Shown here: one piece after another, positions 9,701 through 36,412 of the stretch | Layout: each line of letters opens with the position of its first letter | Numbering within the stretch: position 1 is the first letter of the stretch | Virus record (IMG/VR): IMGVR_UViG_3300030107_004043 | Location: 1 to 37,431 of that record | Source of the DNA: a virus | Reading direction: 5' to 3' (one strand) | Length of the DNA stretch: 37,431 nt | Translations under genes and position numbers: made by a program | Notes under the pieces: model-generated | Told to the model about the DNA's origin: nothing | What the model saw: the letters and a program-made list of their open reading frames with translations, nothing else | Databases searched by the model: none

Positions 9701-12700
9701 CCACCTATCCTGCATTTGAACTTAATTTTTATAGTGATGAAAACTTTACTAATTTGTGGTATAAATCTTCCGCAGATCCTAACTTTGCAATTGATAGAGT
9801 AGGAACAGTAGGATCGGCTGGTGCTAAGGTTAATTTAACAATTAATAAGTATACTCCGACTTTATATTATAAGTTGGATTATATTTACGAAAGTGATCTT
9901 CCTAATGTTAAGAAAGAAATAGTAGTAGATGAAGATGTAAGTGCAGCAAGTGAGATTATAACTGAATCTTCACTTTATAATGGAGAACAAGTTATTACAA
10001 CTTCATCTACTACCGATTTTACATATACTCTTGCTACCTTACCTGAACAACCTTCTTATGCATCTACTGTTTCCAATGTAGTATATGACACTACTTCTAC
10101 AAGTGCTTTGGGAGCGATTAAGAAGTTTAATATAATTGATAAAGGAAGAAATTATTATGCTATTCCTGGAATTTCTACTGTTACCTCTGTTGTAGGAACT
10201 ACTGCAGTTATTGAACCTTCTAGTACTTCGGTTGGTTCTATTAAGAGAACTGAAATTAATAATATTGGATATAATTTCCCATCTGACACTACTTTACAAC
10301 CTAGTATATTACTTCCTCAAATTATTGATATAGATCATCTGGCTGCTTTTGAATCTATTGGAATAACTTCTCAGGGAAGAGGATATCAGGCCCCTCCTAA
10401 ACTTCTTGTTTTTGATGGCAAAACTAAGAAACAAGTTTCTAATGCAGATATTCGTTATAAACTAGGAGATCAGCAAGTCACTATTTACAGAAATCCAACG
10501 GGATTGAGTAGGGCATATTCTCCGACCATTATTCCTGTAGAAAATAGTAATGGTGTTGGTATTAGTACGGTTGGATTTAATACTATTACCAGAGATGCCT
10601 TTGTTGAATTATCTGTTGGTTTTAGTACAGCTAATATCTTCCCGTTAGAAGTAAATGACAAATTCCTTTTAGAAGGTATTAGTGTTGGCGTAGGATCCAC
10701 TGGAAAGAACTTTAACTCAGCAGATTATAATCATACTCTTTTTACAGTTACCTCAATGGATAAAAACATTGGAGGTGTTGGGGCTACCATCACTTATAGT
10801 ATGGCATCCTTAATTGATGAAGGAGTAGATATTGGTAAATTTGATGCTGCTAATTCTTCTGCTCGAATTGTTCCTGAAAAATATTTCCCTGTATTTGATA
10901 TTTCATTAACTACTCAAGAATACTTAGAAGGAGAAACTGTTACTTCTAATTCTGCTTCTGGGACAGTAGAACAATGGGACTTTAATAATGAAATATTAAA
11001 AATATCATCTTCTGATGATTTTAAAGTTGGCGAAGTTATTCGTGGGGAATCCTCTAATACTCAGGGAACCGCTACTTCTATAAGATCCTTTGTTTCTACT
11101 ATGACTTTGGATGCGTCATCTAAGGTTCTTCATGGATGGGAAAGTGATTCAGGAGTTCTTAACGCTAATATGCAAAGAATTCAAGATAATTACTACTATC
11201 AGAACTTCTCTTATGCATTAAGATCAAGGGTTGCAGAAGAAAAATGGGATGATGTAGTAAGTTCTATAAACCATACTGCTGGATTTAAGAAGTTTTCTGA
11301 TTATCAGTTAGAAACGAGTAATACAGAGAGTTCTATGGTTGTCGGATTAAGTACTGCTACCACCTCTTTTGAAATAGTAACAGATATGATTGGATATGGT
11401 GATTTAAACTGTGTTCAAGACTTTGATTTAGTTACTGAGAATTCATTAAATCTTCCGACTATTGTTTCCGACGAAATAATATTCTCTAATAGAATTTTAA
11501 TGGATTATCAAGAATCTGTGGGTAACAGAGCTCTTTCCATTGATGACATGAGTGGGACTTTTAATAGCAGTCCTAGAGCAACTAAGTACAGCGTAGTAGA
11601 TACATTTAAACTTGCAGATGTAAGAGCACAGAAATATATTACTTATGTGGTAGACCAGAGATATACTCAACAACGTCAGTTAATGATCGTTGATCTTCTG
11701 CATGATGGGGCATTTGGATATATTAACCAATATGGAAGAGTAGAAACTCAATATGATCAAGGATCCTTTGATTTTGCTATTAGTGGGGATTTAGGTCAAT
11801 TACAATGGTATCCTACTCAGTTTAGTGTAAATGATTATGATATTACATGTCTTTCATATAATCTAAACGATAACTTCTTAGGAATAGGAACTACTGCTCT
11901 TAGTGATGTTGCATTAATTCAATCTTCTAGTACTAAGGTTCCCTCTGCTACTCAAACTACTATTGTAGGTATTGCAAGTACTTATCGGTCTGCCAAGATC
12001 TTAGTTGAAATCACACCAGATGCCAGTGGTGTAGGAGATATTAATAGTAGTGAATGGGAATTTGATGAACTTAATATTCTTCATGATGGTTCTAATGTTG
12101 ATCTTTTGGAATATGGTCAATTATTGACAACACCTGGTGGTTATACTGGTGGAAGTTTCGGTACTTACTATCCTTATATTGATGGAACTGATTTAAAGGT
12201 TGATTTTATTCCTAATGCAGGTATTGGTACAACTTGTGTTGTTAATACCATTTACGTAGCGATTGCTCAGACCTCTTCTGGTATTGGTACTATTCAAATG
12301 AACCATGCCTTAATTGAGGCAAGAGCAACTGATATTGCTGCTTCTGGAACTCCTATAGCCGTACCTGTTGCTTCATATGGTAACGATTATGATGGAGCAC
12401 ATTTCTTAGTTCAAGTAACTGATACTACTAATAATCATTATCAAACATCAGAAATTGTCGTCGTTGACAATTATATTGAGGATCCTTCTGTTAGTGTTCA
12501 AACTTTTGATACTGAATATGCAACTGTTAACAGTCATTCTGATTTAGGTTATTGGTCTACTGGAATTAGTGGTCTTGGAACGGTTTCTTTATACTTCCAA
12601 CCTAATGCGAGTATTGCAGTAGAAGTTAAGACGTATATGAATGCATTAAAGAATGTTCTTGCATCTAAGGATGAAATAGACTTTACTAATGCAACTATTG

Positions 12701-15700
12701 AGAGTGGATTTGAAACTTATACTGGTACTGAAAGAGACATTAAGAGATCGTTTAATTTAACTCATAGGAACTATAATATCTTTGAAAGATATTTCTTAGC
12801 GAATGAGACTAATATTGTAGATACGGACAATAATACTGTTACTGTACCTAATCATTTCTGGGTTACTGGTGAAAAGATTACTTACAACCATGTAGGAACT
12901 TCTAATTCTGGTATTGGAATAGCATCTACTGATGGCTTCGTTGGGGTAGGTACTACTACTTTCTTACCATCTGAGGTATTCGTTGTTAAAGTGAATGATG
13001 ATACTCTTAAGTTTGCTGAAACCGCCGAAAAAGCACTAAAAGTTGTACCTGAAACTGTAGATATTACTAGTGTTGGTATTGGAACTTCTCATAGATTTAT
13101 TTCTCAGAAACAGAACCAAAAAGCATTGATGGCACTGGATAATATTATTCAGTCACCTGTTGTTTCTACTGCTGTTACAACTACTCTTTCTAATGAACTT
13201 TTAGGAGTTCAGAATATTGCAGAATTCAGTGGAATAACTTCATTCTTTGGTGCTGATCTTATTAAGATTAATGATGAGATCATGAAGATTGAAGGAGTTG
13301 GCATTGGTAGTACTAACTTCATAAGACTGCGTAGAGAGTGGTTAGGAACGACTCTGGCAGGTCATGGAACCGATTCCTTGGTAACTAAGGTTATTGGTAA
13401 TTATAACATCGTTAATAACCTTTTAACCTTTACTGAAGCACCTTATGGAAATGTTCCAATTAGTAGTACCACTAATCCACCTGATGATAGAGATTGGGTT
13501 GGAATATCAACTGGATCTCATTTCCAAGGAAGAACGTTCATGCGTTCTGGAGAAACCAATGGTACCGCTGAATCTTATTCAGAGAATTTAATTTTTGATA
13601 GTCTGTCTAGTCAATTTAATGGTATTGATGATACATTCACTTTAAAATCAGATGGAGCAAATGTATCAGGTATACAGACTGATTCTATTATTTTGGTTAA
13701 TGATATTTTCCAAGCAAATGGAAGCACTTATCAATATACGATTGCAGAAAATTCTGGAATTTCTTCTATAACCTTTACTGGAACGGCAACTTCTATTGCT
13801 TCTGATCCAGGTGGTTCTAACCTCCCAATGGGTGGAGTTATTGTTAGTGTTGGATCTAGTGAAGGATTTGGTTATCAACCCCTCGTCGCAGCAGGTGGAA
13901 CTGCCATTGTTTCTACTGCTGGTACTGTAAGTTCTATTAGTCTTGGATATACTGGTTCTGGATATAGATCTGGTATTCAAACTGTTAATGTTGCAATTAA
14001 GACTGAAAGTTTAACAGGTACTAATTTGGTTTCAATTGGTACTGCTTCTATAGTTGATGGTTATATTACGGGTGTTGCTGTAACTAATCCTCATATATTT
14101 GGTAAAGCAAAGAGTATTGCACATGTAGGTTATAGTACTTCTCAGGGACTTACAACTGTTACTACCCATCTTCCTCATGAATTATCATTGGGTGATGAAA
14201 TAGATCTTTCAGGTATTGCATTTACATGTAACTATGCCCCACGACTAGGTATTACTAATGTAGGATATGATACGGTAACGGGTATTATGACAGTTACTAC
14301 TGCTAGTGCTCATAATTATAATACCACAGGTAAGACTAATAGAGTTATCTTTACTGGACTTGCATTTACTTGTGGTTTAGATAATGGAGAGTCTACTCAT
14401 TATTATCCACGAGGTCAAGACTTAGCATATGATACAGCTGTTGAAGTTATAAAGAATGGAACTCTTAAGACTGTTACCAATGCTGCATATAATCCTGTAA
14501 CAGGGATCATGACTGTTACTGTTCCTTCTCATGGATTGAGTAATGGGGATAAGGTTCTCCTAGAAAATAATTCTATTCAATTCATTTGCCAGAAGGATGG
14601 TGGAAAGACTGCTCATAGTTATCCTAGACCAAGTGATCCTATTGCTGGACAGTGGGTAACAATTTCTAATAAAACCACTAATACTTTTAGAATTCAAGTT
14701 CTAAGTGTAGCTCCTTCTACTAATGTAGGAATTCATACGTTCGTTGGATCAACTACTAATGGCATTACTCTACATGACGATAAGATTAGTGTTAATGTAG
14801 GATATGGTGGTCCTGCTGATCAATTTGCCCATACTTTCGTGGGTATAGGAACTAGTGCTGTTATAACTGGTGGAGATTATACACATCAATTTGTAAGTGC
14901 AGCGAGTAGTGCTGTAGTTACCGGGGGTAATTACACCCATACTTTTGTAAGTGCTGTTGGGGGTGGAGTTACGGTAACAGGAATAGGTACTACGACCCCT
15001 ACTGCTGCTTCCTATGATGCTTCAACTGGTGATTTAGTATTAACAGTAGGATCGGGTCATACGTACACTACAAGCGATACTGTAGGGTTCTCAACGAATG
15101 CTATAGTCTTTACATGCTCCTTAGATGGAAACACTAGTGCTCATGCGTATCCACGTTCTAGTGATCCTATTACTGGAATGGGAGTTACGGCAATTACTGG
15201 TGTAGGAGATACCACTATTACTGTTAATGTTGGATCATCACCATTATCCTACTATAATGTTTCGGATGCTAGTTACACTGCATCTAGTGGAGACCTTACT
15301 CTAACGGTTGGTAGCCATAGTCTTACAGGACCAAGTACCCATACGGTTACTGCTGCTCAGTATAATCCTGTCTCAGGTATTATGACTGTCTTTGTGGGAA
15401 CCGCCAATTCATTCTCCAGTGGAGATAAGGTGCGTTTTGATAATGATTCATTAACCTTTACTTGTGCATTAGACGGACATACTGCTAATAAGACATATCC
15501 ACGAGCTGGTTCAGGAGGTACTGCCGATCCATTTAATGGACAATGGAGATCTATCGCTGGTGTAGGTAGTACTTCATTTGAAGTTCAAGTTTTGGATAAC
15601 ATTCCATCTACTTATACTGGGGTTCATACCTTTGTATCTGCTTCTGCTGGTGGACTTCATAAGATGGGCGAATCTGTTAAGATTGAGCAGGATAGTTTAA

Positions 15701-19731: not shown

Positions 19732-22700
19732 ATGTCGCAGCTAACAAATCTAAACGTATCGCCATATTTTGACGACTTTGATGCAGATAACGATTACTAT
19801 CGGGTATTATTTAAACCTGGATATCCCGTACAGGCACGAGAATTAACTGGTTTGCAGTCTATGTTGCAAAACCAGATTGAAAAGTTTGGTCAGCACTTTT
19901 TTAAAGAAGGAACTAAGGTAATACCCGGAAATACATCATACACTAACGAATATAAATGCATTCAATTAAACAATAATTTTCAAGGAGTACCTGTATCTGC
20001 TTATGCCGATCAATTAATTGGTGCAACTATTACTGGACAAACATCTGGAGTTACAGCAACAGTTAATAAAGTTTTGCTTCCAGAAGATTCTGAAAATGGA
20101 AATCTTACTCTTTATATTAATTACTTAGGGTCTAGTACTACTAATAATTCTACTGAAGTTTTTGCAGATGCTGAATCTTTAACTGCTAGTGTTACAATTA
20201 CATCGGGATTGCTCGGAAATACTTCAATATCTATTGGAAGTCCCTTTGCTGCTACTTTATCACAAGATGCCGCTGCAACAGGATCTGCATTTCATATTGA
20301 GGCTGGTGTATATTTTGTAAGAGGTAATTTTTGTTCGATAGATTCAGAAACTCTAATTTTAGATCAATATAGTAATACATCTTCTTATAGAGTTGGTTTT
20401 AATATTTTAGAAGAAATAATTACACCAGATTTGGATGAGACTTTAAATGATAATTCACAGGGATTTAATAATTATGCGGCTCCAGGAGCCGATAGATTAA
20501 AAATTACTCTTTCTTTATTTAAGAAAGAATTAGATGATTTTAATGATGAAAGTTTTGTTGAATTAGCAACTGTTAATACGGGGGAATTAAGAAGTAAAAG
20601 GAATACAACTGAGTATAGTATTATAGCAGATGAGTTAGCGCGTCGTACTTATGCGGAGTCGGGGGATTATTATGTAAAGCCTTTTGATGTTAGATTTGTC
20701 GATTCTTTGAATAATAATCTTGGAAATCAAGGAATTTTTCAAGAGGGTCAATTTACATATGGAGGAGTTACTCCATCTGAGGATTTAGGTCTTTATCTTG
20801 TATCTCCTGGAAAAGCGTTTGTTAAAGGGTATGAAATTGAAACTATTGCTCCCGAATATCTTGATGCAGATAAACCCCGAACAACTAAAACTTTACAAGA
20901 TCAAGCACTTGAATATAATACTGGTCCCACATTAAGATTAAATTCTGTTTATGGTCATCCTACCATTGGAATTGGAAATACTTATGTTTTAAGTTTAAGA
21001 GATCAAAGACTAGGTGTTACTTCTACTAGTATAGCAGGAAAAGAAATAGGTCAAGCAAGAGTTTATGATGTAACTCTAGAGTCTGGTACTTATGAAAAAT
21101 CATCTAATGATGCATTAAATCAATGGGATATTTCTCTTTATGATGTTCAAACAGTAACTGATCTTGCCATTAATGAAGCTCCCACTACACTTGATACTTG
21201 GAGTGCTGGAACTTTTGTTAAAGGAAAGAATAGTGGGGCAACTGGATTTTTAAGATATGGGGTTTCTGCGGGAACGGCATTAACAGTTACTCAAACTACA
21301 GGGAATTTTGTTAAAAATGAATCTCTAAGTTTTAATGGAATTCTGAATGGAAGAGTTGCGATAGCAGTGACAGAATATGGGATTTCTAATGTTAAGTCTG
21401 TATATGCAACCAATAATGGTATAAGTGGAATTAATACTTTTACTGCTAATACTCTACAATCTACTTCCTTTAATATTGGAATAGCTACTATTAGTCCCGG
21501 TGAAGGTGCAAATTATATTAGTACTGTTAGAAGTCCTAATACATTATTCCCCGGTACTGGTGATGTTATTAGAATAAATGATTTGGTAGAATATGGGGAT
21601 ATGAGTGTAAACCTCCTAGGTGACCCTGTTATGGGAAGGGTTGTTAGTGTAGGAACTAGTGAAATTACTATAACAGGTGTTACAACTGTCACTAATATTG
21701 TTGATGGTAAATTACCTCTTTCACCATTTACTGCAAATGATTTTAGAGTGGTAAGAACCAATTTACAGGATTCTCTGGATAATACTCTTTATACAGCTCT
21801 TCCTAGGCAAAATATTTCTAATGTTGATCTTACCGATGCTTCTCTTAGTATAAGAAATGTTTATTCTGATGAAACAATTGCTGCTAATAGAGTAGCAAAT
21901 CAATTAGCATCTGGGGAGAATAAAACTTTCTTACCATTTGATGAAGAAAGATATGCAGTTATTAGATCAGATGGAATTACGGAGGAGATAAACTCTACTA
22001 ATTTTGTATTTGGTAATGGAATGACTACTTTGGATATTATTGGTCTTCCTACTGAAACAGATAGTGGGAATGTACAAATAGTTACTACTTTAAAGAAATT
22101 AAAGCCTACTTCTAAAACTAAGATTAAAGATCGGGTCAATTCTATTGTTGTCGATAAGTCCAATCTGGTGGGATCGGGTATTGGAACTACTACTACTCAA
22201 AATGGTTTAGAGTATGGTGATTTTCCATATGGAACCAGAGTTGAAGATGAGACTATTTCATTACGTACTCCGGATATCATTAATCTTCATGGTATTTTTG
22301 AAACTACTGAAACTGAGGGAACGCCTTCTGCACCCACAATGGATCTTTCTTCTATTAATAGTGCAACCACAACTACTAGTGAATATATTGTAGGGGAACA
22401 AATTATTGGTCAGACCAGTAATAGTATTGCCATAGTTGCAGAAAAATCCGATGCAGATACTCTTACTTTCATTTATAAGAATGCTAATGAATTCAAAGAA
22501 GGTGAAACTATTATATCGCAGGAATCAAATATTCAAGCTGTAATTACTACATTGAATAGTAGTAGTTTTAATATAACTGGAAATTATACATTTGATAATG
22601 GTCAAGAACGTACAATTTACAATTATGGATCTATTATTAGAAATAATAATGCAGAATCTCCCTCTAAGAAAATAAAGATTTATTTTGAAAGTGCTCATTA

Positions 22701-25700
22701 TGATTCGACGGATACCGGAGATATCACTACTGTAGATTCATATAATACCTTTAATTATGGAACACAGATTCCATCGGTAAATGGAGTTAGAAATAGCGAT
22801 ATAATTGATATCAGACCGAGAGTATCTAATTACACGGTAACAGAAGGAGGCAATTCACCTCTTACTTTTGCTGGAAGATCTTTTGATGGAGATGGTAATT
22901 CCGCAGCTAATATGTTAGCTTCTGATGAATCTATTGTTGTTGATTTTACATTCTACTTAGGAAGAATTGATAGAATATTCTTAACTAAGGACGGGAATTT
23001 CCAAGTCATTTATGGAACACCAGCAGAAAAACCTGAAAGACCTCTGCCTGTTGATGATGCCATAGAGGTGGCTACTGCCCAACTTCCTCCATATCTTTAT
23101 AATGTTAGTGATGCCATAATTAATTTCTTTGAATATAAGAGATATCGCATGAAGGATATCCAAAGATTAGAGACTAGAATTCAGAACCTCGAATATTATA
23201 CTGCTTTATCTTTACTTGAAGTTAGTACTTCTAGTTTCTTTGTTCCTGATTCGGATGGATTGGATAGATTTAAATCGGGATTCTTTGTTGATAATTTTGA
23301 ATCTTTCCAGGCTCAAGATACTGATATCCCCGTTAAGAATAGTATTGATAGAAATAATAAAGAACTTAGACCAGAGCATTATACCAATTCCGTTGATTTG
23401 CAATTTGGTCCTGTAGTTAATGTAGATAGCACGGAAGATACTCAATTTAGTACTATTGAGGGTATTAATGTACGTAAGCATCCTTCACAGATGATTACAT
23501 TAGATTATTCTGAGACTGAATATGTGAAACAAGTATTTGGATCTAGAACAGAATCTATAACACCTTTTATTGTTGCTTATTGGAATGGTATTGTTGAATT
23601 AACTCCTGAATCGGATACTTGGATTAATACTAGAAGGTTAGAAGCTCGGACTCTTATTGAAGAAGGAAACTTTGCTTCTACATTTGCTAATCTGGTCAGA
23701 AATCAAGGATGGAGTCAAAATGGATTTGGTCCTAATGTATGGGGTTCATGGAATACCTTCTGGACTGGAACTGAAAGGAATTGGATTGGTGGAGTAAGAA
23801 GTCGTAGTACTAGCAGAAGTAATACAAGACAGGAAGGAAATTTCGCTGTAACTAGGACTACCACTACTACCCATCGCTCTCGGAGACAGGAAATTTTCCA
23901 AACTGGAAGAGATGAAAGGAGTGGTACAAGACAACAGATTGTTCAAGATTTTTCTCAAAGACGTTCTGAAGGAGACCGATTAGTTAGTAGGGAAGTAATC
24001 CCCTTTATGAGAAGTCGTAACGTTGAGTTTGTTTCTCAACAGAATAAGCCAATAACCAGATTATATCCATTTTTTGAGGGTGTGGATGTAGAAGAGTATT
24101 GTGTACCTAAGCTTTTAGAAATTGAAATGACATCTGGTACTTTCCAGGTGGGAGAAACTGTTGTGGGTGTTATACAAGGAACAGGATTAGGACCTAATAA
24201 TACAACAACTCCGAATATAAGATTCAGAGTTGCACAATCTAATCATAAAGAAGGTGCATATAATATTCCCACAAAAACTTTTGGTGCTAATCCATACGCC
24301 GCAGGTCAATTAGTTCAATCTCAATATTCTTCTACTTCGACATTATTAAATGTAGATACCTTCTCCCTTGCACAGCAAGCACAAGGACAATATTATGGAT
24401 GGGTTGCCAATGGTATGGTTCTTACAGGAAGATCAAGTGGGGCTCAGGCAAAAATAGTTAATATGAGATTGGTTGCTGATTTGAGTGGTTTCTTAGGTGG
24501 ATCTTTCTTTATACCGGATCCTAATAATCCAAATCATCCTTCCTTTACCGTGGGTGAAAAGGTATTCCGATTTAGCAGCGATCCTCAAAATGGACCTAAT
24601 GCAACTTCTTCTTCCGAAGATGATTTTGCATCCATAGGATACTTAGAAACTATTCAAGAGACTATTATTGCTACCCGAAATGCAAGAATTTTAACTCATA
24701 ATATTTCTGAATCACGCTCAAACAGAAGGCAGATAGGCACTGAATGGAGGAGTCTCGGATCTTCAAGTCGTACTACTACTTCAAGACAACAAAATCAGTG
24801 GGATGATTGTGATCCTTTAGCACAATCATTTAAGGTTAATGAAGAAACTGGTGTATTCTTAACTAAATGTGATATATTCTTCTCTAGTAAATCAGTGGAT
24901 GAACTTCCTGTTGTGTTCTCTATCAGAACTATGCTTGCTGGTGTACCAACTACAAATATTGTTCCTTTGAGTGAAGTAGCATTAGATCCATCCCAAGTTA
25001 ATGTTTCTACTGATGGTTCAGTAGCTACTACTTTTGAATTTGAAGCACCAATCTATTTGGAAGGTAATCAGGAATATGCGATAGTAATGTTATCCAATTC
25101 TGCTCAATATGCTGCTTATATTTCTAGAGTAGGTGAGACTGATTTATTAACAGGTAATTATATTGCTAATCAGCCTCTTTTGGGATCTATGTTTAAATCT
25201 CAAAATGCTTCTACATGGGAACCAAGTCAATGGGAAGATCTTAAATATACTCTTTATAGGGCAGAATTTGTTGAATCTGGAACTTTTGAGGTATATAGTC
25301 CCGAATTAACAGAAGGAAATGATCAAATTCCTCAACTTCCCCCACAACCATTAGAATTATATTCAAGGCAGATCAGAGTAGGTTTAGGAACTACTATCGC
25401 TGATAATGGATATGTAATGGGGAATACTTTCTATCAAGAAGGAACTAATGCAACTGGTAATCTTGCTGGAGTTGCTGGTGCCGCATACACTAGTTTGAAT
25501 ATTATTAATGCAGGTATTGGTTATACTCCATTGGATGGACAATTCCAATTTAATGGTGTAGTTCTTGATACGGTTAGTGGGAATGGTAGAGGAGCGACTG
25601 CTGATCTTTATATTTCTAATGGAGTTGCAATTGCTGCAACCGTATCTATTGGAGGTACAGGATATAAAGTAGGTGATGTTCTTGGTATTACAACTGTGGG

Positions 25701-27288
25701 ACTTGCTTCTGTGGGAAGAAATGCTAGATTCTCTCTTACTTCTATTGGTAGTACAAATGAACTTCTTTTAGAGAATGTTCAAGGTAACTTTATAGTTGGT
25801 ACTGCAAATACTCTCTTCTATTATAAGAATAGTGCAGCAGTAGGTGTAGCAACTGAATTAAATTACTCTGCTGGTGGAGATGTTCAAATTGTCCAAACTA
25901 ATACAGTTAGTGATGGTTTACATATTAAGGTAAATCAGAAGAATCATGGAATGTATTTCACTAAGAATAATGTAGAAATTTCTGATGTAGAATCTGATAT
26001 TTTGCCCACTAAATTATCCACTGCATATAATGTAGGAGATACGGGCAGTGTATCTGTTGCAGATGCTTCTAAATTCTCTACTTTTGAGAATGTAAGTGTG
26101 GGTACTACTAACTATGGATACATGAGAATTGGTGAAGAGATTATCTCTTATAGTTCTGTCAATGGAAATACAATTGGTGTAAGTACTAGAGGTATTTCAA
26201 ATTCTGTTAAGAAAACTTATCCAGTTGGAACTCCTGTTTACAAATATGAATTAGGTGGAGTCAACTTATTGAGAGTTAATACAACTCATGGATTATCTAC
26301 AACATCATCTGCCTATTCTAATGCTACTAACATAGAAACATCTGGTGCTATTACATTTGATTCTTATAATATTAAGTTGGATATGTCTAAGAATGGTACT
26401 GCGAGAAATACTGATGTAGGTTGGCCTGCTCTTTATATTAATCAATCCAAGTCTAGCGGTGGATATAAGGTAAGAGCAACTCAGAATATGCCATATGAAC
26501 TTATTACTCCAATGGTTCAGAACATAACTGTTCCGGCTACATCATTAACTGCTACTGGTCGAATGATTGATGCTAAGAGTATTAGTGGAAATGAAATTCC
26601 TTATATACAAACTGATTCCGAATCTTTAATTTTGAATCAAACTAATTATTTGGATAGTCCTAGAATTATTGCTTCTAAACTTAATGAAGATACATTCTTA
26701 GCTGATATAAAAGGAAGTAAATCGTTGCAAATGACTATCGCCCTTAATACTGCTGATAATCATGTAAGTCCTGTGGTTGACGGGCAGAGAATGAATGCGA
26801 TTCTTACTTCAAATAGAGTTAATGATGTTATTGTAAATTATGCAACAGATGATAGGGTAAGTACAGTAGAGACTGATCCTACTTCTTGTCAGTATGTCTC
26901 CAAGGAAATGTTATTGGAAAATCATGCAACATCCTTAAAGGTAATCTTAGCTGCTCATCTTCATGAAAATGCAGATATTAGATTGTTCTATGCAGTTCAT
27001 AATAAAGAAGCAGTGGAACCGATCTTTGTTCCTTTCCCTGGATATCAAAACCTTAATAATAGAGGGCAAGTGATTGCACAGGAGAATAATAATGGTCTTC
27101 CTGATAAATTTGTTCCTAAATCTAATTCTTCTGGATTCGATGGAGAGAATTTAGAATTTAGAGATTATACATTTACTGTTGATCAATTACCTTCATTCCG
27201 AGCATATAGAATTAAGATTTTGATGACTTCGGAAAGTCAAGTGTATGTACCAAGAGTGAAGGATCTCCGCGTAATCGCCTTAGCTTAA
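19732..27288 (+). CDS. Giant DUF4815-type virion structural protein (2518 residues)
   Basis: The N-terminus (NVSPYFDDFDADNDYYRVLF then KPGYPVQARELTGLQSMLQN, residues 8-47) is the signature of the DUF4815 family found next to gp8 in T4-like cyanophages. About 500 residues look like this family. GE-type beta repeats follow at about 492-548 and 884-941. Residues about 1353-1410 are rich in Arg, Ser and Thr (RSRSTSRSNTRQ, TRTTTTTHRSRRQ). A conserved block from about 1690 (DCDPLAQSFKVNEETGVFLT) is probably a jelly-roll-like domain. G-x-G-Y units occur at about 1919-1989, an RG loop at about 2109-2176 and a conserved C-terminal domain at about 2385-2518. It stands where T4 has genes 9-12 and wac, so it is probably the outer baseplate or tail-fibre connector; that role is inference from position. 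Confidence 0.75.
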   Translation: MSQLTNLNVSPYFDDFDADNDYYRVLFKPGYPVQARELTGLQSMLQNQIEKFGQHFFKEGTKVIPGNTSYTNEYKCIQLNNNFQGVPVSAYADQLIGATITGQTSGVTATVNKVLLPEDSENGNLTLYINYLGSSTTNNSTEVFADAESLTASVTITSGLLGNTSISIGSPFAATLSQDAAATGSAFHIEAGVYFVRGNFCSIDSETLILDQYSNTSSYRVGFNILEEIITPDLDETLNDNSQGFNNYAAPGADRLKITLSLFKKELDDFNDESFVELATVNTGELRSKRNTTEYSIIADELARRTYAESGDYYVKPFDVRFVDSLNNNLGNQGIFQEGQFTYGGVTPSEDLGLYLVSPGKAFVKGYEIETIAPEYLDADKPRTTKTLQDQALEYNTGPTLRLNSVYGHPTIGIGNTYVLSLRDQRLGVTSTSIAGKEIGQARVYDVTLESGTYEKSSNDALNQWDISLYDVQTVTDLAINEAPTTLDTWSAGTFVKGKNSGATGFLRYGVSAGTALTVTQTTGNFVKNESLSFNGILNGRVAIAVTEYGISNVKSVYATNNGISGINTFTANTLQSTSFNIGIATISPGEGANYISTVRSPNTLFPGTGDVIRINDLVEYGDMSVNLLGDPVMGRVVSVGTSEITITGVTTVTNIVDGKLPLSPFTANDFRVVRTNLQDSLDNTLYTALPRQNISNVDLTDASLSIRNVYSDETIAANRVANQLASGENKTFLPFDEERYAVIRSDGITEEINSTNFVFGNGMTTLDIIGLPTETDSGNVQIVTTLKKLKPTSKTKIKDRVNSIVVDKSNLVGSGIGTTTTQNGLEYGDFPYGTRVEDETISLRTPDIINLHGIFETTETEGTPSAPTMDLSSINSATTTTSEYIVGEQIIGQTSNSIAIVAEKSDADTLTFIYKNANEFKEGETIISQESNIQAVITTLNSSSFNITGNYTFDNGQERTIYNYGSIIRNNNAESPSKKIKIYFESAHYDSTDTGDITTVDSYNTFNYGTQIPSVNGVRNSDIIDIRPRVSNYTVTEGGNSPLTFAGRSFDGDGNSAANMLASDESIVVDFTFYLGRIDRIFLTKDGNFQVIYGTPAEKPERPLPVDDAIEVATAQLPPYLYNVSDAIINFFEYKRYRMKDIQRLETRIQNLEYYTALSLLEVSTSSFFVPDSDGLDRFKSGFFVDNFESFQAQDTDIPVKNSIDRNNKELRPEHYTNSVDLQFGPVVNVDSTEDTQFSTIEGINVRKHPSQMITLDYSETEYVKQVFGSRTESITPFIVAYWNGIVELTPESDTWINTRRLEARTLIEEGNFASTFANLVRNQGWSQNGFGPNVWGSWNTFWTGTERNWIGGVRSRSTSRSNTRQEGNFAVTRTTTTTHRSRRQEIFQTGRDERSGTRQQIVQDFSQRRSEGDRLVSREVIPFMRSRNVEFVSQQNKPITRLYPFFEGVDVEEYCVPKLLEIEMTSGTFQVGETVVGVIQGTGLGPNNTTTPNIRFRVAQSNHKEGAYNIPTKTFGANPYAAGQLVQSQYSSTSTLLNVDTFSLAQQAQGQYYGWVANGMVLTGRSSGAQAKIVNMRLVADLSGFLGGSFFIPDPNNPNHPSFTVGEKVFRFSSDPQNGPNATSSSEDDFASIGYLETIQETIIATRNARILTHNISESRSNRRQIGTEWRSLGSSSRTTTSRQQNQWDDCDPLAQSFKVNEETGVFLTKCDIFFSSKSVDELPVVFSIRTMLAGVPTTNIVPLSEVALDPSQVNVSTDGSVATTFEFEAPIYLEGNQEYAIVMLSNSAQYAAYISRVGETDLLTGNYIANQPLLGSMFKSQNASTWEPSQWEDLKYTLYRAEFVESGTFEVYSPELTEGNDQIPQLPPQPLELYSRQIRVGLGTTIADNGYVMGNTFYQEGTNATGNLAGVAGAAYTSLNIINAGIGYTPLDGQFQFNGVVLDTVSGNGRGATADLYISNGVAIAATVSIGGTGYKVGDVLGITTVGLASVGRNARFSLTSIGSTNELLLENVQGNFIVGTANTLFYYKNSAAVGVATELNYSAGGDVQIVQTNTVSDGLHIKVNQKNHGMYFTKNNVEISDVESDILPTKLSTAYNVGDTGSVSVADASKFSTFENVSVGTTNYGYMRIGEEIISYSSVNGNTIGVSTRGISNSVKKTYPVGTPVYKYELGGVNLLRVNTTHGLSTTSSAYSNATNIETSGAITFDSYNIKLDMSKNGTARNTDVGWPALYINQSKSSGGYKVRATQNMPYELITPMVQNITVPATSLTATGRMIDAKSISGNEIPYIQTDSESLILNQTNYLDSPRIIASKLNEDTFLADIKGSKSLQMTIALNTADNHVSPVVDGQRMNAILTSNRVNDVIVNYATDDRVSTVETDPTSCQYVSKEMLLENHATSLKVILAAHLHENADIRLFYAVHNKEAVEPIFVPFPGYQNLNNRGQVIAQENNNGLPDKFVPKSNSSGFDGENLEFRDYTFTVDQLPSFRAYRIKILMTSESQVYVPRVKDLRVIALA
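21205..21375 (+). repeat. GE-type beta repeat in DUF4815 protein (first copy)
   Basis: The pattern 'F-x-x-G/N-x-x-x-x-G-x-x-S-G-A-x-x-x-x-x' repeats twice here (AGTFVKGKNSGATGFLRYG, then GNFVKNESLSFNGILNGRVA). It is a divergent copy of the unit seen at 10918-11082, 22381-22554 and 30203-30364. Confidence 0.5.
22381..22554 (+). repeat. GE-type beta repeat in DUF4815 protein (second copy)
   Basis: EYIVGEQIIGQTSNSIAIVA is followed after about 20 residues by EFKEGETIISQESNIQAVIT. This two-strand GE unit is shared with gp7 (10918-11082) and gp14 (30203-30364). Confidence 0.65.
25486..25698 (+). repeat. G-x-G-Y beta modules in DUF4815 protein
   Basis: SLNIINAGIGYTPLDGQFQF and AATVSIGGTGYKVGDVLGI form two units of the family also present in gp7, gp8 and gp14. 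Confidence 0.65.
26056..26259 (+). repeat. RG-type beta module in DUF4815 protein
   Basis: VADASKFSTFENVSVG, YMRIGEEIISYSSVNGNT, GVSTRGISNSVKKTYPVGTP: same order of strands and turn residues as the gp7 and gp15 modules, with the His replaced. Confidence 0.6.
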
Positions 27289-29026: not shown

Positions 29027-30478
29027 ATGGCACTTAACCCGTATTTTCAACAAGGTTCTAGATCTGAACAAAATTTAGTACAAGATTTAATCAACGAACA
29101 GTTGAGGATGTATGGTGTTGAGGTGCATTATTTACCTCGTAAATATGTCTCAGAAGCAACAGTAATAAGAGAAGTAGTTAGATCAAAATTTGATGATGCT
29201 TATCCATTAGAAGCATATTTGGATACTTATGATGGTTATGGTGAGAACCCAGTCATTCTCTCTAAATTTGGTATTGAGCAAAAGAATGAAGTAACTCTGA
29301 CTATTTCAAGAGATAGATGGGAGACTTATATTGAACCTTTAATGGAAAACGAGGCAGACGTAAAACTCACTACTCGACCTAAGGAAGGGGATTTAATTTA
29401 TTTTCCATTAGGTGATCGATTATTTGAGATTAAGTTTGTAGAACATGAAAAACCTTTCTACCAGCTTAAAAAAACTTATGTTTATACTTTAAAATGTGAA
29501 CTCTTCGTATACGAGGATGAGGTTATTGATACTGGGGTTGAGGAGATTGATGATTCTCTAATTGGAGATGATTATGATGGTACAGCAGGTGACGGTCTTT
29601 CAACAATTATTGGACCCACTCAGACTCTTACTTTAGTTGGTGTTGGTGTAACAGCAACTGCCGTCACAGGTATTGTTACAGGTGGTATCAGATATATTGA
29701 ACTGTCTAATAGAGGTGGAGGATATCTAGGTGGTCCTACCGTTGCCATTTCTTCTGCACCATCAGGTGGAGTAACTGGTATAGCAACCGTAAGATTTATT
29801 GCAGGAATGGTTGTATGTAATAAAGGAGTTAATCCCGCCACGAGATCTATTCAAAATGTTGACTTACAAAATGCAGGTGTAGGTTATGCAATAACTCAAC
29901 CTCCTACAATTAGTATCTTTGGTAATGGTGGAAGTGGTGCGGCAGGAACTGCTGTAGTAAGCAATGATGGTATTGGTATTGTAACTGTTACATCTGGTGG
30001 TAGTGGATATACTACTAGCCCAACTATTACCTTTACAAGTGAAATATTTAAGACTGGTGTTAGTACTGCTGGTGCTGCTGCTACCGCTGTATTAGATTCT
30101 AGTGGAAGTATCACTGCTATCAATATAACTAATGCTGGTATGGGATATAGTACTACACCAACATTGAATATTACTGGTGCAGGAGTAACATATAGTGGTA
30201 ACTTCGACTTTAATGAGGAAGTTATTGGATCTATCAGTAGTACTACTGCTAGGGTAAGGACTTGGAATGCTGAAACAAATGTAATAGAATTGGCTTCTGT
30301 AAGTGGATCATGGACATTAGGAGAGAAATTGGTGGGTCAGAAATCGGGTGCTGTCCATGCGATAAGGCAGATTGATTTAGATCCATTAGAAGATGGATTT
30401 GCTGATAACTTGAAGATAGAAGAAGCAGCAGATGATATCTTAGACTTTACAGAACAGAACCCATTCGGGACACCATAA
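29027..30478 (+). CDS. 14: Neck protein gp14 with inserted beta-repeat domains
   Basis: At 483 residues it is nearly twice T4 gp14 (256). Residues 1-175 are a good gp14: LNPYFQQGSRSEQNLVQDLI, MYGVEVHYLPRKYVSEATV, YLDTYDGYGEN, KEGDLIYFPLGDRLFEIKF and PFYQLKK all have T4 counterparts. Residues about 221-386 are instead four G-x-G-Y units (GGGYLGGPTVAI, GVGYAITQPPTI, GSGYTTSPTITF, GMGYSTTPTLNI), followed by a GE-type repeat at 393-446. The last 35 residues (DPLEDGFADNLKIEEAADDI then LDFTEQNPFGTP) return to an acidic gp14-like tail. The insert should project from the neck, which is exposed, so it could act like a collar whisker or surface-binding domain; that is inference. The stop codon is embedded in a late promoter. 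Confidence 0.9.
   Translation: MALNPYFQQGSRSEQNLVQDLINEQLRMYGVEVHYLPRKYVSEATVIREVVRSKFDDAYPLEAYLDTYDGYGENPVILSKFGIEQKNEVTLTISRDRWETYIEPLMENEADVKLTTRPKEGDLIYFPLGDRLFEIKFVEHEKPFYQLKKTYVYTLKCELFVYEDEVIDTGVEEIDDSLIGDDYDGTAGDGLSTIIGPTQTLTLVGVGVTATAVTGIVTGGIRYIELSNRGGGYLGGPTVAISSAPSGGVTGIATVRFIAGMVVCNKGVNPATRSIQNVDLQNAGVGYAITQPPTISIFGNGGSGAAGTAVVSNDGIGIVTVTSGGSGYTTSPTITFTSEIFKTGVSTAGAAATAVLDSSGSITAINITNAGMGYSTTPTLNITGAGVTYSGNFDFNEEVIGSISSTTARVRTWNAETNVIELASVSGSWTLGEKLVGQKSGAVHAIRQIDLDPLEDGFADNLKIEEAADDILDFTEQNPFGTP
29687..30184 (+). repeat. Four G-x-G-Y beta modules in gp14
   Basis: Units IELSNRGGGYLGGPTVAI, DLQNAGVGYAITQPPTISI, VTVTSGGSGYTTSPTITF and INITNAGMGYSTTPTLNI are spaced about 30-60 residues apart. 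This is the cleanest array of this module in the window. Confidence 0.8.
30203..30364 (+). repeat. GE-type beta repeat in gp14
   Basis: FDFNEEVIGSISSTTARVRT and SWTLGEKLVGQKSGAVHAI, about 20 residues apart, match the two-strand unit in gp7 (10918-11082) and the DUF4815 protein (22381-22554). Confidence 0.65.
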
Positions 30479-30495
30479 ATATTTTGTGCTATAAT
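30467..30495 (+). promoter_or_regulatory. Extended -10 sigma70-like promoter for the DUF2997/Ycf35 cassette
   Basis: TGCTATAAT (30487-30495) is a perfect extended -10 element (TGnTATAAT). Seventeen bases upstream of the TATAAT, GGGACA (30467-30472) matches four of six -35 positions. It lies at the gp14 stop and 24 bases before the ATG at 30519, and it overlaps a late promoter at 30474-30481. Confidence 0.65.
30474..30481 (+). promoter_or_regulatory. T4-type late promoter (CATAAATA) at the gp14 stop
   Basis: CATAAATA fits NATAAATA and contains the gp14 TAA stop (30476-30478). It sits inside the spacer of the sigma70-like promoter, so the cassette could be served both early and late. Confidence 0.5.
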
Positions 30496-30518
30496 ATAGG
30501 ATAATTCTCCATTCTCCT

Positions 30519-30692
30519 ATGAATAAAGATCTGGAACGCATTGCCGACAGTCTTGAAAGAATCGCTAAGGTTCTTGAAGGTGGTCCTCTGCATATAAATA
30601 TTGATCATGGTCATATCGAACATATTGATCATTTAGATCATGTCGATAATATTGATCAAGGCGATTTACAAGTCCACAATCACGCTTTCTAA
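30519..30692 (+). CDS. His-rich miniprotein with helix and period-3 repeat
   Basis: ATG at 30519 opens a 57-codon frame ending at 30692, two bases before the next ATG. Residues 3-20 (KDLERIADSLERIAKVLE) are an ideal amphipathic helix with a repeated LERIA, likely an oligomerising coiled coil. Residues 24-55 then change to a three-residue periodicity with a hydrophobic residue every third position: I33-E-H, I36-D-H, L39-D-H, V42-D-N, I45-D-Q. The protein has eight His and many Asp, ending HNHAF, so metal binding is plausible. I recognise no family. It is the first gene of a three-gene unit with DUF2997 and Ycf35, directly under the promoter at 30467-30495. The frame, the non-random repeat and the spacing support a real gene; its function is unknown. 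Confidence 0.65.
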   Translation: MNKDLERIADSLERIAKVLEGGPLHINIDHGHIEHIDHLDHVDNIDQGDLQVHNHAF

Positions 30693-30694
30693 TC

Positions 30695-30919
30695 ATGCCA
30701 ACACAACAAACTCTTAAGTTCAATATTCGACAAGATGGGACGGTAACCGAAGAGGTTATAGGTGCAGTTGGGAACGAATGTGAACAACTTACTTTAACCA
30801 TTGAAGAAAACTTGGGTATCGTATCTCAAAAAGAACATAAACCCGAATATTTTCAACAATTAATGGGTCAGGTAGAAGTAGAAGTAGAAGAATGGTCCCA
30901 CGATTCGGAGTGCGCGTAA
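30695..30919 (+). CDS. DUF2997 family protein
   Basis: A 74-residue protein. LKFNIRQDGTVTEEVIGAVG followed by NECEQLTLTIEENLGIV (residues about 7-44) fits the short beta-beta-alpha pattern of DUF2997: a strand, D-G-x-V-x-E-x-V-x-G, a conserved Cys (C29), a helix and L-G. A later KPEYFQQ is also typical. DUF2997 proteins are small cyanobacterial proteins of unknown role, usually encoded beside DUF1257/Ycf35 and often near a ferredoxin. Here the DUF1257 gene follows with a one-base overlap (TAATG), so the cyanobacterial pairing is kept. The acidic C-terminus (EVEVEEWSHDSE) is longer than expected. It is probably an auxiliary gene from a cyanobacterial host, not a virion part; that is inference. 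Confidence 0.75.
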   Translation: MPTQQTLKFNIRQDGTVTEEVIGAVGNECEQLTLTIEENLGIVSQKEHKPEYFQQLMGQVEVEVEEWSHDSECA

Positions 30920-31311
30920 TGTCACATTTCAGTACTATAAAGACAAAAATCAAAGAAAAACCTATTTTACTTGAAGCACTTCAATTATTAGGACATGACA
31001 TTAAAGAGGATCAAGAGTTGGTCGTAGGTAATGTATATCATGCCAAAGATCACCCCGTGGTAGAAGCTGATGTTTGTATAGGAACGGATATTGGTTTTCG
31101 TTGGAATGAAGAAGATAAAATTTATGAATTAGTAACCGATTTGCAAACTTGGAGTCAACCAGTACCACCAGAAAGATTCATTGAAAAAGTAACTCAGCAG
31201 TATGCAAGAATGAGTATTCATAATACTGTAAAGGACCTGGGATTCCAAGTTGCTGAAGAATGGGAAATGGATGATAACTCCATAGAATTGACGGTAACCC
31301 GGTGGGTATAA
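30919..31311 (+). CDS. ycf35: DUF1257 protein, Ycf35 family
   Basis: A 130-residue protein, close to the usual length of Ycf35 (about 125-130). The start MSHFSTIKTKIKEKPILLEA is the diagnostic N-terminus of the family. DIGFRWNEEDKIYELVTDLQTW, PERFIEKVTQQYA and GFQVAEEWEMDDNSIELTVT follow in the order seen in cyanobacterial and red-algal plastid Ycf35. An in-frame ATG 27 bases upstream exists, but the family begins at MSHFS and the TAATG junction with DUF2997 supports the later start. The biochemical role of Ycf35 is not established. It is oddly placed between neck gene 14 and tail gene 15. Its TAA stop is embedded in a perfect late promoter that drives gp15. Confidence 0.85.
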   Translation: MSHFSTIKTKIKEKPILLEALQLLGHDIKEDQELVVGNVYHAKDHPVVEADVCIGTDIGFRWNEEDKIYELVTDLQTWSQPVPPERFIEKVTQQYARMSIHNTVKDLGFQVAEEWEMDDNSIELTVTRWV

Positions 31312-31314
31312 ATA
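31307..31314 (+). promoter_or_regulatory. Perfect T4 late promoter (TATAAATA) for gp15-gp16
   Basis: TATAAATA is identical to the T4 late consensus. It contains the TAA stop of ycf35 (31309-31311) and lies 21 bases before the gp15 ATG. Confidence 0.8.
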
Positions 31315-31335: not shown

Positions 31336-32346
31336 ATGTTTGAATATTTTTATAACGAAATTTTGAGGAGGACCATCATTGCGTTTGGTACTCTTTTTAA
31401 TGGTATTACGATTAAACAAGAAGGTTCGGACATCCGAGTTCCTTTGGCATATGGTCCTACTCAGAAATTTTTAGCACGTTTAACACAGACACCAGATTTA
31501 AATAGGGCAACGGCAATTACGTTACCACGTATGTCTTTTGAATTCACTGGTTTAACTTATGATCCATCAAGAAAGGTTACTACCACTCAGCAGTTTACAG
31601 TAAAAGATCCGACGGATGGAAGTGAATCTAAAAAGGCATATATGCCCGTTCCATATAATATGCAATTTGAACTTGCACTCATGTGTAAATTAAACGATGA
31701 TGCATTACAGATCGTAGAACAGATATTACCTTATTTTCAACCAGCATATAGTGTTACTGTAAATTTGGTGGGGAGTATTAATGAGAAGAGAGATATTCCT
31801 ATTATATTAGAAAATATTACTATGCAGGATGATTATGAAGGAGACTTTGAAACTAGAAGAGTTCTTCTTTATACTTTAAGATTTACTGCAAAGACTTATA
31901 TGTTTGGTCCTGTTTCTTCTGCTACCGACGATATTGTCAAGAAGGTTCGGGTCAGCTACCTTACAGGTACAGATACTACAAATACTTCAAGAGATCTCAC
32001 ATATACGGTCACACCAAGAGCAGTTAAGAGTTACGATGGTCCTGTCGTCACTACTCTTAATGAGGATGTTAACTTGACAGAGGTAGAGATTGCTCTAACT
32101 GATGCAACTAATATTGCTGTGGATCAGTATATCTACATTGATAGTGAAGAAATGCTTGTCACCACGGTGAATAATAATTCAATAGTTGTTGAAAGAGCAC
32201 AAGACAATACCACTGCTGCTTCTCATGTTAAGGGAACCTCAGTAAGAGTTGTTAATCCTACTGTAGCCGATAACACGGTTGCTCAGGACGATAATGCTCT
32301 TATTGAAGAGGGGGATGACTTTGGGTTTGATGGTGTTATATCATGA
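31336..32346 (+). CDS. 15: Tail completion and sheath stabiliser protein gp15
   Basis: A 336-residue protein; T4 gp15 has 272. MFEYFYNEILRRTIIAFGTL, IRVPLAYGPTQKFLARL, LPRMSFEF and ALQIVEQILPYFQPAYSVTV all align by eye with T4 gp15 (MFGYFYN, IRVPITYAS, QIVEQILPYFQP). gp15 forms the hexameric ring that caps the tail tube and sheath and joins the neck. The extra length is C-terminal: residues about 249-306 form an RG-H-type module (IYIDSEEMLVTTVNNNSIVV, ERAQDNTTAASHVKG) also found in gp7 and the DUF4815 protein. An acidic tail follows. It is driven by a perfect late promoter and overlaps gp16 by four bases (ATGA). Confidence 0.93.
   Translation: MFEYFYNEILRRTIIAFGTLFNGITIKQEGSDIRVPLAYGPTQKFLARLTQTPDLNRATAITLPRMSFEFTGLTYDPSRKVTTTQQFTVKDPTDGSESKKAYMPVPYNMQFELALMCKLNDDALQIVEQILPYFQPAYSVTVNLVGSINEKRDIPIILENITMQDDYEGDFETRRVLLYTLRFTAKTYMFGPVSSATDDIVKKVRVSYLTGTDTTNTSRDLTYTVTPRAVKSYDGPVVTTLNEDVNLTEVEIALTDATNIAVDQYIYIDSEEMLVTTVNNNSIVVERAQDNTTAASHVKGTSVRVVNPTVADNTVAQDDNALIEEGDDFGFDGVIS
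32080..32253 (+). repeat. RG-H beta module in gp15
   Basis: The pattern 'I-D-x-E-x-M-x-V-(x)n-V-x-R-(x)n-T-x-A-x-x-H-x-x-G-x-x-V' seen here is shared with gp7 at 13243-13392 (KINDEIMKIEG, LRREWLGTTLAGHGTDSLV) and 8569-8705, and with 26056-26259 in the DUF4815 protein (IGEEIISYS, STRGIS). Confidence 0.65.
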
Positions 32347-35497: not shown

Positions 35498-36412
35498 ATG
35501 AAGGAGTGTAAACAAGGTTATTATTTCTGCACGAAAGAAAAGAAGTGTATGCCTATTCCTAGTGGAATGAGGATAGGATATGGTGGATGGTTAGAACCTA
35601 AGAAAAAAAATGGAAAGAATGGTAAAAATGGTAATGGCAACGGTAATGGGTCCCATAACGGGAATGGAAATGGTAATGGCAATGGTGGCAATGGTAATGG
35701 TGGGAACGGTAACGGTGGTGGTGGCAATGGCGGTGGAGGAATGGGAGAATCAGTAAGACTCCCTCTTAAATTAGAAGTCCCTCAGAATTCCACTGAATTT
35801 CGTTTAGGTTTAATGTTTAGAGAGAGTTTGGAATATGATAGGGGAATGCTTTTTGTTTTTGAAGAAGTAGGACAAAAATCTTTCCATATGAAGGATACTC
35901 GTATTCCACTTGATATTGCATTTATCAAGGAAGATGGAACTATTGAAAGTATTAAACCTTTGAATCCATTTACACTTTTACCCGTCTCTTCTGATGGAGA
36001 AGTTGCTTCTGCATTAGAAGTAAATAGAGGATGGTTCGCTGAAAATAATGTGGAAGAAGGAGATTCGTTACAAATTGGTAATGCAACAGGTGGTCTTGCT
36101 TTTGAAGTTATAGACCTTATTAAACCAGAACCTCTTGTACCAACTCAACAAACGGTTGAATGGGAAGATCCAGCAGAATTAACTGAAATACGTAGAGTTC
36201 CCAACTATAATAAACCAGGAAATATAGTACAAATATATTTGGCATGGAGAGGAAGAACAATGGGTATTCAAATGTTCTTTCCATCTGCTAAGAAACCATC
36301 TCGTAAACAGGTATTAGATCAATTACAAAAGGTATATCCTACTGCTAAACTGCATAGTTTTGAAGTAACCGATTATGATCCACAAGCACCTCTTCTTCAA
36401 ACAGGAGATTAA
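35498..36412 (+). CDS. Cys motif, Gly/Asn linker and DUF192 domain fusion protein
   Basis: A 304-residue protein in four parts. Residues 1-37 (C4, C11, C17 in KECKQGYYFCTKEKKCMPIP, then SGM) form a small Cys motif that, from memory, recurs at the start of other cyanophage virion-associated proteins. Residues 38-81 are an almost pure Gly/Asn linker. Residues about 95-195 are a DUF192 domain: EFRLGLMFRESLEYDRGMLF, VFEEVGQKSFHMKDTRIPLD, IAFIKEDGTI and VNRGWFAENNVEEGD all match the family's R-x-x-G-L-M-x-R, G-M-L-F-x-F and F-x-M-x-x-T-x-x-P-L-D blocks. The C-terminal 80 residues (IYLAWRGRTMGIQMFFPSAK) are a separate domain of unknown role. DUF192 has no settled function. ATG at 35498 lies in a late-gene context between the capsid-targeted protein and gp17. 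Confidence 0.75.
   Translation: MKECKQGYYFCTKEKKCMPIPSGMRIGYGGWLEPKKKNGKNGKNGNGNGNGSHNGNGNGNGNGGNGNGGNGNGGGGNGGGGMGESVRLPLKLEVPQNSTEFRLGLMFRESLEYDRGMLFVFEEVGQKSFHMKDTRIPLDIAFIKEDGTIESIKPLNPFTLLPVSSDGEVASALEVNRGWFAENNVEEGDSLQIGNATGGLAFEVIDLIKPEPLVPTQQTVEWEDPAELTEIRRVPNYNKPGNIVQIYLAWRGRTMGIQMFFPSAKKPSRKQVLDQLQKVYPTAKLHSFEVTDYDPQAPLLQTGD
35609..35740 (+). repeat. Gly/Asn low-complexity linker repeat
   Basis: Repeats of GGT/GGC/GGA with AAT/AAC codons encode residues 38-81. Codons alternate among synonyms, so the repeat is kept at protein level more than as exact DNA repeats. It separates the Cys motif from the DUF192 domain. Confidence 0.85.

Follow-up and report, generated by a model that had tools for sequence, protein, structure and literature searches.

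Why does a marine cyanophage carry cyanobacterium-like genes between its neck gene gp14 and its tail gene gp15, and what might they do there? We examined this question in virus record IMGVR_UViG_3300030107_004043 (37.4 kb; "the window" below means this whole stretch of DNA). Three small open reading frames (ORFs) on the + strand lie between gp14 and gp15 and encode a histidine-rich (His-rich) miniprotein, a DUF2997 protein and Ycf35 (DUF1257); all the sequence features that a preliminary description had noted for these genes were present. The explanation that we favor, with a probability of roughly 0.48, is that DUF2997 and Ycf35 form a mobile, host-derived module that acts on the host redox and iron-stress system linked to Fed7, a 4Fe-4S ferredoxin. 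Its parts differ in strength: the origin and the modular nature of the pair are highly probable, and the Fed7-linked mechanism is tentative. The module would be a self-promoted, translationally coupled two-gene auxiliary unit. The features of the locus are as follows.

29027-30478, + strand: gp14 neck protein, left flank (PF11649, 2.9e-31; phrog_460)
30475-30481, + strand: ATAAATA resembling a late promoter; lies ahead of the cassette and overlaps the gp14 stop
30487-30495, + strand: extended -10 promoter-like motif TGCTATAAT (motif match and cross-locus comparison)
30519-30692, + strand: His-rich miniprotein, 57 amino acids (phrog_35332, 1.2e-6; family alignment)
30695-30919, + strand: DUF2997 protein, 74 amino acids (PF11211, 3.7e-17)
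30919-31311, + strand: Ycf35 (DUF1257) protein, 130 amino acids (PF06868, 6e-23; tree; AlphaFold2 model)
31307-31314, + strand: putative late promoter of gp15, TATAAATA; overlaps the ycf35 stop and lies 28 nucleotides (nt) before gp15
31336-32346, + strand: gp15 tail sheath stabiliser, right flank (PF16724, 4e-86)

Both members of the pair matched their Pfam families far above the curated cut-offs, confirming the earlier assignments. DUF2997 scored 62.3 bits against PF11211 (cut-off 24.1; profile positions 1-47 of 47), and Ycf35 scored 81.5 bits against PF06868 (cut-off 22.2; profile positions 1-103 of 103). Conservation analysis revealed Gly15, Cys29, Thr33 and Gly41 as invariant in the DUF2997 protein, and phage Ycf35 copies retained the residues that are invariant throughout their own family. 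A subset of the phage DUF2997 proteins, from the window (30695-30919) and 13 related loci, share the conserved C-terminal tail HDSE(G)C(A), in which a Cys is close to the end.

A phylogeny was built from 75 DUF1257 proteins; its alignment had 132 columns, and many of its forks were unresolved. In this phylogeny, all 27 phage Ycf35 rows formed one clade (Shimodaira-Hasegawa-like approximate likelihood ratio test, SH-aLRT, 99) within marine picocyanobacteria, next to Prochlorococcus, as the proposal of a host-derived auxiliary pair had predicted. The window protein belonged to the Fed7-linked Ycf35 class, and paralogue groups linked to AAA ATPases were set apart. Median ratios of nonsynonymous to synonymous substitution rates (dN/dS) were 0.19 for phage Ycf35 (2100 non-independent pairs) and 0.32 for DUF2997, indicating purifying selection on the phage pair. 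These values, like the promoter and adjacency counts below, come from related sequences, and the p-values are not independent and serve as a guide only. Marine T4-like cyanophages probably took the pair once, from a duf2997-ycf35-fed7 operon of the Prochlorococcus lineage, and would have left fed7 behind.

A scan of viral contigs revealed 344 stretches encoding a Ycf35 relative, and 80 loci were fetched. ORFs were called and clustered and neighbours were named in 86 records, which were assigned to site classes by rules applied to fragments. The pair lay between the gp16/fibre region and terminase gp17 in 22 records, before DNA polymerase gp43 in 17 (P-SSM2 among them), at gp14|gp15 in 9, near nrdA/B in 8, near GDP-mannose dehydratase or its neighbour c20 in 7, before gp25-gp6 in 4 and near psbA in 3 (P-SSM7 among them); 16 records were elsewhere or unclassified. 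The gp14-gp15 interval, which had been presented as the place of the cassette, is therefore incidental, one among at least seven sites that include replication and psbA regions, and the cassette has no fixed place in the structural module. The cassette followed gp14 in nine records (the window and eight fetched contigs); gp15 came next in eight of them, and in L012 the DNA examined ends there. In S-SM2 and Bellamy, gp15 comes directly after gp14 at a distance of ~40 bp; their gp15 proteins share 69% and 66% identity, respectively, with the window protein. Relatives thus differ in whether the site contains the cassette or is empty. It is extremely improbable that DUF2997 and Ycf35 build the virion neck or help to assemble it: they do lie between neck and tail genes here, but other phages have these genes close to DNA polymerase, psbA and nrdA/B, gp14|gp15 is empty in relatives, and the homologues are cellular. 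Because the same pair occurs in replication and metabolic neighbourhoods, its products appear to be non-structural, in keeping with the auxiliary role first proposed.

Wherever it could be tested in phages, DUF2997 adjoined Ycf35. It was present in 84 of the 86 Ycf35 phage records, the exceptions (L045 and L076) beginning ~60 bp before ycf35, and the gap from DUF2997 stop to ycf35 start was 2 nt or less in all 81 pairs measured. The pairing is thus obligate. Among the records of the gp14|gp15 site, sequence divergence is much greater in the cassette than in the flanking genes: L065 and the window are 94% identical in gp14 and 95% in gp15, as against 64% in Ycf35 and 60% in DUF2997. Cassette alleles appear to have been swapped between fixed flanks. 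The centre of phage Ycf35 (~residues 31-50 and 61-70) was much more variable than the ends. Compared with that of L015, Ycf35 of the window (30919-31311) looks mosaic, with nearly identical ends and a replaced centre (~residues 33-66).

The pair was already present, unannotated, in P-SSM2, P-SSM5 and P-SSM7. Ycf35 was found in INPHARED only in these phages and in single-cell marine viruses; no Synechococcus phage record there contained it, though 377 of them match gp15. Genes PSSM2_178/PSSM2_179 (T4-GC 174/175) of P-SSM2, a T4-like phage of Prochlorococcus, form a DUF2997-Ycf35 pair like that of the window, with 60% identity in Ycf35; the corresponding value for P-SSM7 (PSSM7_222/223) is 48%. 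The pair lies between nol and gp43 in P-SSM2 and near psbA in P-SSM7, whereas that of the window is at gp14|gp15, and in both phages the genes are annotated merely as hypothetical proteins. We found no description of a phage DUF2997-Ycf35 cassette in those parts of the open literature on DUF1257, Ycf35 and DUF2997 that were available to us, and no mention of the P-SSM2 locus tags in open papers. Cyanophage auxiliary metabolic genes such as psbA, hli, talC and nrd are host-derived, expressed from phage-specific positions and kept under selection. The pair resembles them in its host origin and in being under selection; it differs in that it consists of coupled genes that move among many sites and encode proteins of unknown function.

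We then compared promoter motifs across loci, on which the promoter claim for the cassette rests. In the window itself, sigma-70 matches were not more frequent than in shuffles (11 vs. 10.2 expected), and for this reason early transcription is not claimed from the window alone. Of 68 distinct cassette starts, 23 had TGnTATAAT within 75 nt, always at -26 to -32; the background was 21 among the 634 remaining ORFs of these loci, an odds ratio of 15. ATAAATA was found at 25 of the 68 cassette starts and at 60 of the 634 other ORFs. The motif enrichment supports the suggestion that the cassette is under its own extended -10 host-type promoter. At the gp14|gp15 site, the -10 motif preceded 7 of 8 distinct cassette starts, 5 of them also with a tandem late motif. 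At the gp43 site, the -10 motif was found at 9 of 16 cassette starts and the late motif at one; at the gp17 site, 9 of 15 starts had the late motif. Promoter type therefore tends to follow the neighbourhood. Several gp43-site copies, read by eye, have a hairpin and a T-run directly before the -10 motif.

ATAAATA (30475-30481) and TGCTATAAT (30487-30495) stand in tandem in the window. The heptamer is depleted there (8 vs. 24 expected), and all eight copies are on the + strand; four are 28-37 nt before ORF starts, and the one at the cassette is 44 nt before it. The cassette had been described as expressed early inside a late operon. The host-type promoter agrees with the early part of that statement, but the late motif upstream of the cassette had been overlooked, and the cassette would therefore not be purely early; to judge from these motifs, it is probably expressed both early and late. 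The late promoter postulated ahead of gp15 was borne out by the comparison: TATAAATA precedes gp15 in the window, L013, L015, L065, L072 and L083, and CATAAATA in L007, so that the motif was present in all seven occupied sites whose gp15 side was inspected. It was absent from the empty gp14|gp15 sites of S-SM2 and Bellamy.

These findings bear on whether the cassette is a neutral passenger acquired by chance capture from a host. Purifying selection, the 344 related viral contig stretches, the integrity of the pair through relocation and the recurrence of its promoters all argue against such a passenger, and we consider it very improbable even though most isolated cyanomyoviruses lack the cassette.

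Among 110 cyanobacterial loci, DUF2997 was directly upstream of Ycf35 in 107, and Fed7 was directly downstream of Ycf35 in all 108 testable loci. The statement that the DUF2997-DUF1257 pair travels together in cyanobacteria thus held as to pairing; however, the pair is not context-free there, because it is locked to Fed7. Of 194 host-phylum genomes sampled, 86 have Photo_RC genes, and all but one of these (85) encode the DUF1257 family; of the 108 that lack Photo_RC genes, 13 do, most of them with weaker matches when compared by eye. Ycf35 also persists in red-lineage plastids. The gene order duf2997-ycf35-fed7 agrees with cluster g of a published study, in which Fed7 was induced by low iron and by high light and interacted with ferredoxin-thioredoxin reductase and a DnaJ-like protein; cells without it coped less well with oxidative, metal and iron stress, including iron limitation (PMC4284462). 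Expression of ycf35, ssl1263 and fed7 depends on SigD (PMC8875361), and Ycf35 protein rises upon copper or iron reduction (PMC8141849).

The phage pair has the same two families in the same order as the cyanobacterial operon, usually overlapping or abutting in both. The phage cassette differs in that it lacks fed7, has its own promoter and often has a His-rich gene added. The junction also differs: the DUF2997 and Ycf35 genes of Prochlorococcus usually overlap by 14 nt, whereas those of the window overlap by 1 nt at TAATG, so that this junction, first thought to be inherited, does not come from Prochlorococcus.

No Fed7 gene was found in the DNA examined of the 86 Ycf35 phage records, nor in 18 longer Ycf35 records that were searched whole; in the window, Ycf35 is not directly followed by Fed7 as it is in the host operon. 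INPHARED contained no credible Fed7 either, but the conclusion that phages never carry Fed7, drawn from that database, proved wrong. Fifteen marine phage contigs in IMG/VR (L304-L318) encode a Fed7-like 4Fe-4S ferredoxin with 57-76% identity to Prochlorococcus Fed7. Several of these genes are directly before uvsW, and the start codons of the ORFs are unclear; in L314, a gene for a NifU-domain protein (2735-2971; PF01106, 2.6e-23) directly precedes Fed7. Ycf35 was absent from these 15 contigs, most of which are fragments. Some phages carry the pair and others Fed7; each of the three host-operon genes is thus represented in marine phages, divided between two modules.

These data suggest how the module may work. 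Extra DUF2997 and Ycf35 would be made early from the host-type promoter, and late as well at late-region sites. The two proteins would act together on the Fed7-linked redox and iron-stress system of the host and augment it, so that photosynthetic reductant and iron-sulphur capacity stay available for phage replication, with a benefit under light or iron stress. A bolder version is somewhat unlikely: the pair would be the minimal transferable effector of the Fed7 redox/iron-sulphur system of oxygenic phototrophs. Cyanophages would have divided the host operon between two mobile units, Fed7 and the DUF2997-Ycf35 pair, so as to retune the flow of photosynthetic electrons or iron-sulphur in infected cells, and the His-rich protein would be a metal-binding accessory.

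Several points weigh against the Fed7-linked explanation. No biochemical role is known for DUF2997 or Ycf35, and no tested interaction of either protein with Fed7 was found in the literature. Expression of the pair in infection is read from promoter motifs, Fed7 and the pair did not occur together on any of the phage contigs searched (mostly fragments), and the single phage clade is also compatible with several phage-to-phage transfers. Moreover, DUF1257 paralogues adjoin AAA ATPases or Hsp70 rather than Fed7, and the ancestral activity may therefore be protein remodelling.

The last point introduces the most serious rival, in which DUF2997 and Ycf35 are adaptors of a protein-remodelling machine (an AAA ATPase or Hsp70/DnaJ) and the phage supplies them to steer the chaperones of the infected host or the turnover of proteins such as those of photosynthesis. 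Diverged cyanobacterial DUF1257 paralogues (L208, L209, L210, L212, L219 and L220), some of them on plasmids, mostly adjoin AAA ATPases; the L209 paralogue, on a Pseudanabaena plasmid, also adjoins GrpE and Hsp70. This arrangement, in which the paralogues adjoin DUF2997 as well, speaks for an adaptor. However, the class carried by phages is Ycf35 proper, whose link is to Fed7 instead of an AAA ATPase, and the paralogues form separate branches; we regard the adaptor role as unlikely. Less probable still is a decoy that displaces host Ycf35 and DUF2997, blocks the host pathway and diverts iron or electrons from the host. In favor of a decoy, the phages have taken only two of three operon members, and the centre of Ycf35 is its most variable part, as would suit an altered contact surface, but phage copies keep the family-wide invariant residues, and the carriage of Fed7 itself by other phages points to boosting.

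Structure models, for which alignment rows from annotated phage records were excluded, do not decide between the Fed7-linked and adaptor explanations. The AlphaFold2 model of Ycf35 (predicted local distance difference test, pLDDT, 86.9) has the order beta-alpha-beta4-alpha-beta2. Its best Protein Data Bank (PDB) match was the KA1 domain of Chk1 (Z 6.0, 75 residues, 3.5 Å), which is in the range of a common arrangement and was rejected as a fold identity; Foldseek against the PDB gave nothing below E 0.09. Among viral proteins, Foldseek gave one match with the fold of Ycf35, A0A7S5REL3 in BFVD (E 2.7e-7, 22% identity). The DUF2997 model was poor (pLDDT 69) and gave no useful structure matches. 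A profile hint of a copper-ATPase metal domain (E 0.08) was judged to be chance.

The third gene of the cassette is an enriched but loose companion of the pair. Its product in the window has an N-terminal helix-like LERIAxxLERIA, followed by HID/HIE triplets and a conserved tail; in the family, an N-terminal RIAxALERIAxxLE segment and the conserved tail flank a variable number of triplets. Residues 1-39 matched positions 2-39 of the 50 of phrog_35332 (E 1.2e-6), a family of unknown function. Matches to PhoU (E 0.063) and amphi-Trp (E 0.05) were below the cut-offs and were rejected. The gene had been suggested to be a phage-specific partner. Of 80 His-rich loci, 32 have the gene directly beside the pair, but it is not specific to the cassette: 45 loci lack the pair in the DNA examined and 3 have it elsewhere in the locus, and an obligatory partnership was rejected on these counts. 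Every virus in INPHARED with the His-rich family also has Ycf35, two single-cell viruses having it on another contig. The cassette is split in P-SSM2 (L226, L002), in which the His-rich gene PSSM2_256 is beside GDP-mannose dehydratase, 45 kb from the DUF2997-Ycf35 pair before gp43, whereas the His-rich gene of the window adjoins the pair. This P-SSM2 site lies close to the position of the whole cassette in L004 and L017. A possible role of the His-rich miniprotein in binding or buffering a metal, to the same end as the pair, is the weakest step of the proposed mechanism.

Ycf35 tracks oxygenic photosynthesis almost perfectly in the cyanobacterial sample (85 of 86 reaction-centre genomes), yet it has no known function. 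Phages that keep DUF2997 and Ycf35 alone suggest that the pair is separable from Fed7 and useful in infection, a small testable unit. The pair occurs at many genome positions in related phages, which therefore become a route to the role of Ycf35, and the interest of this host-derived auxiliary module is that it makes that function testable. Marine phages with Fed7 and a NifU-domain protein suggest that, where the ocean is poor in iron, upkeep of iron-sulphur and redox functions is a strategy of phages.

Elsewhere in the window are two giant ORFs, at 3760-18129 (4789 amino acids) and 19732-27288 (2518 amino acids); a protein of S-SM2 annotated as VrlC occupies the position matching the second. 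An ORF at 35498-36412 has an Asn-Gly repeat, and its second half has relatives in other phages that match DUF192. One such relative, a protein of L059 (PF02643, 4.3e-30), is encoded at the terminase site, which in other phages is occupied by the cassette.

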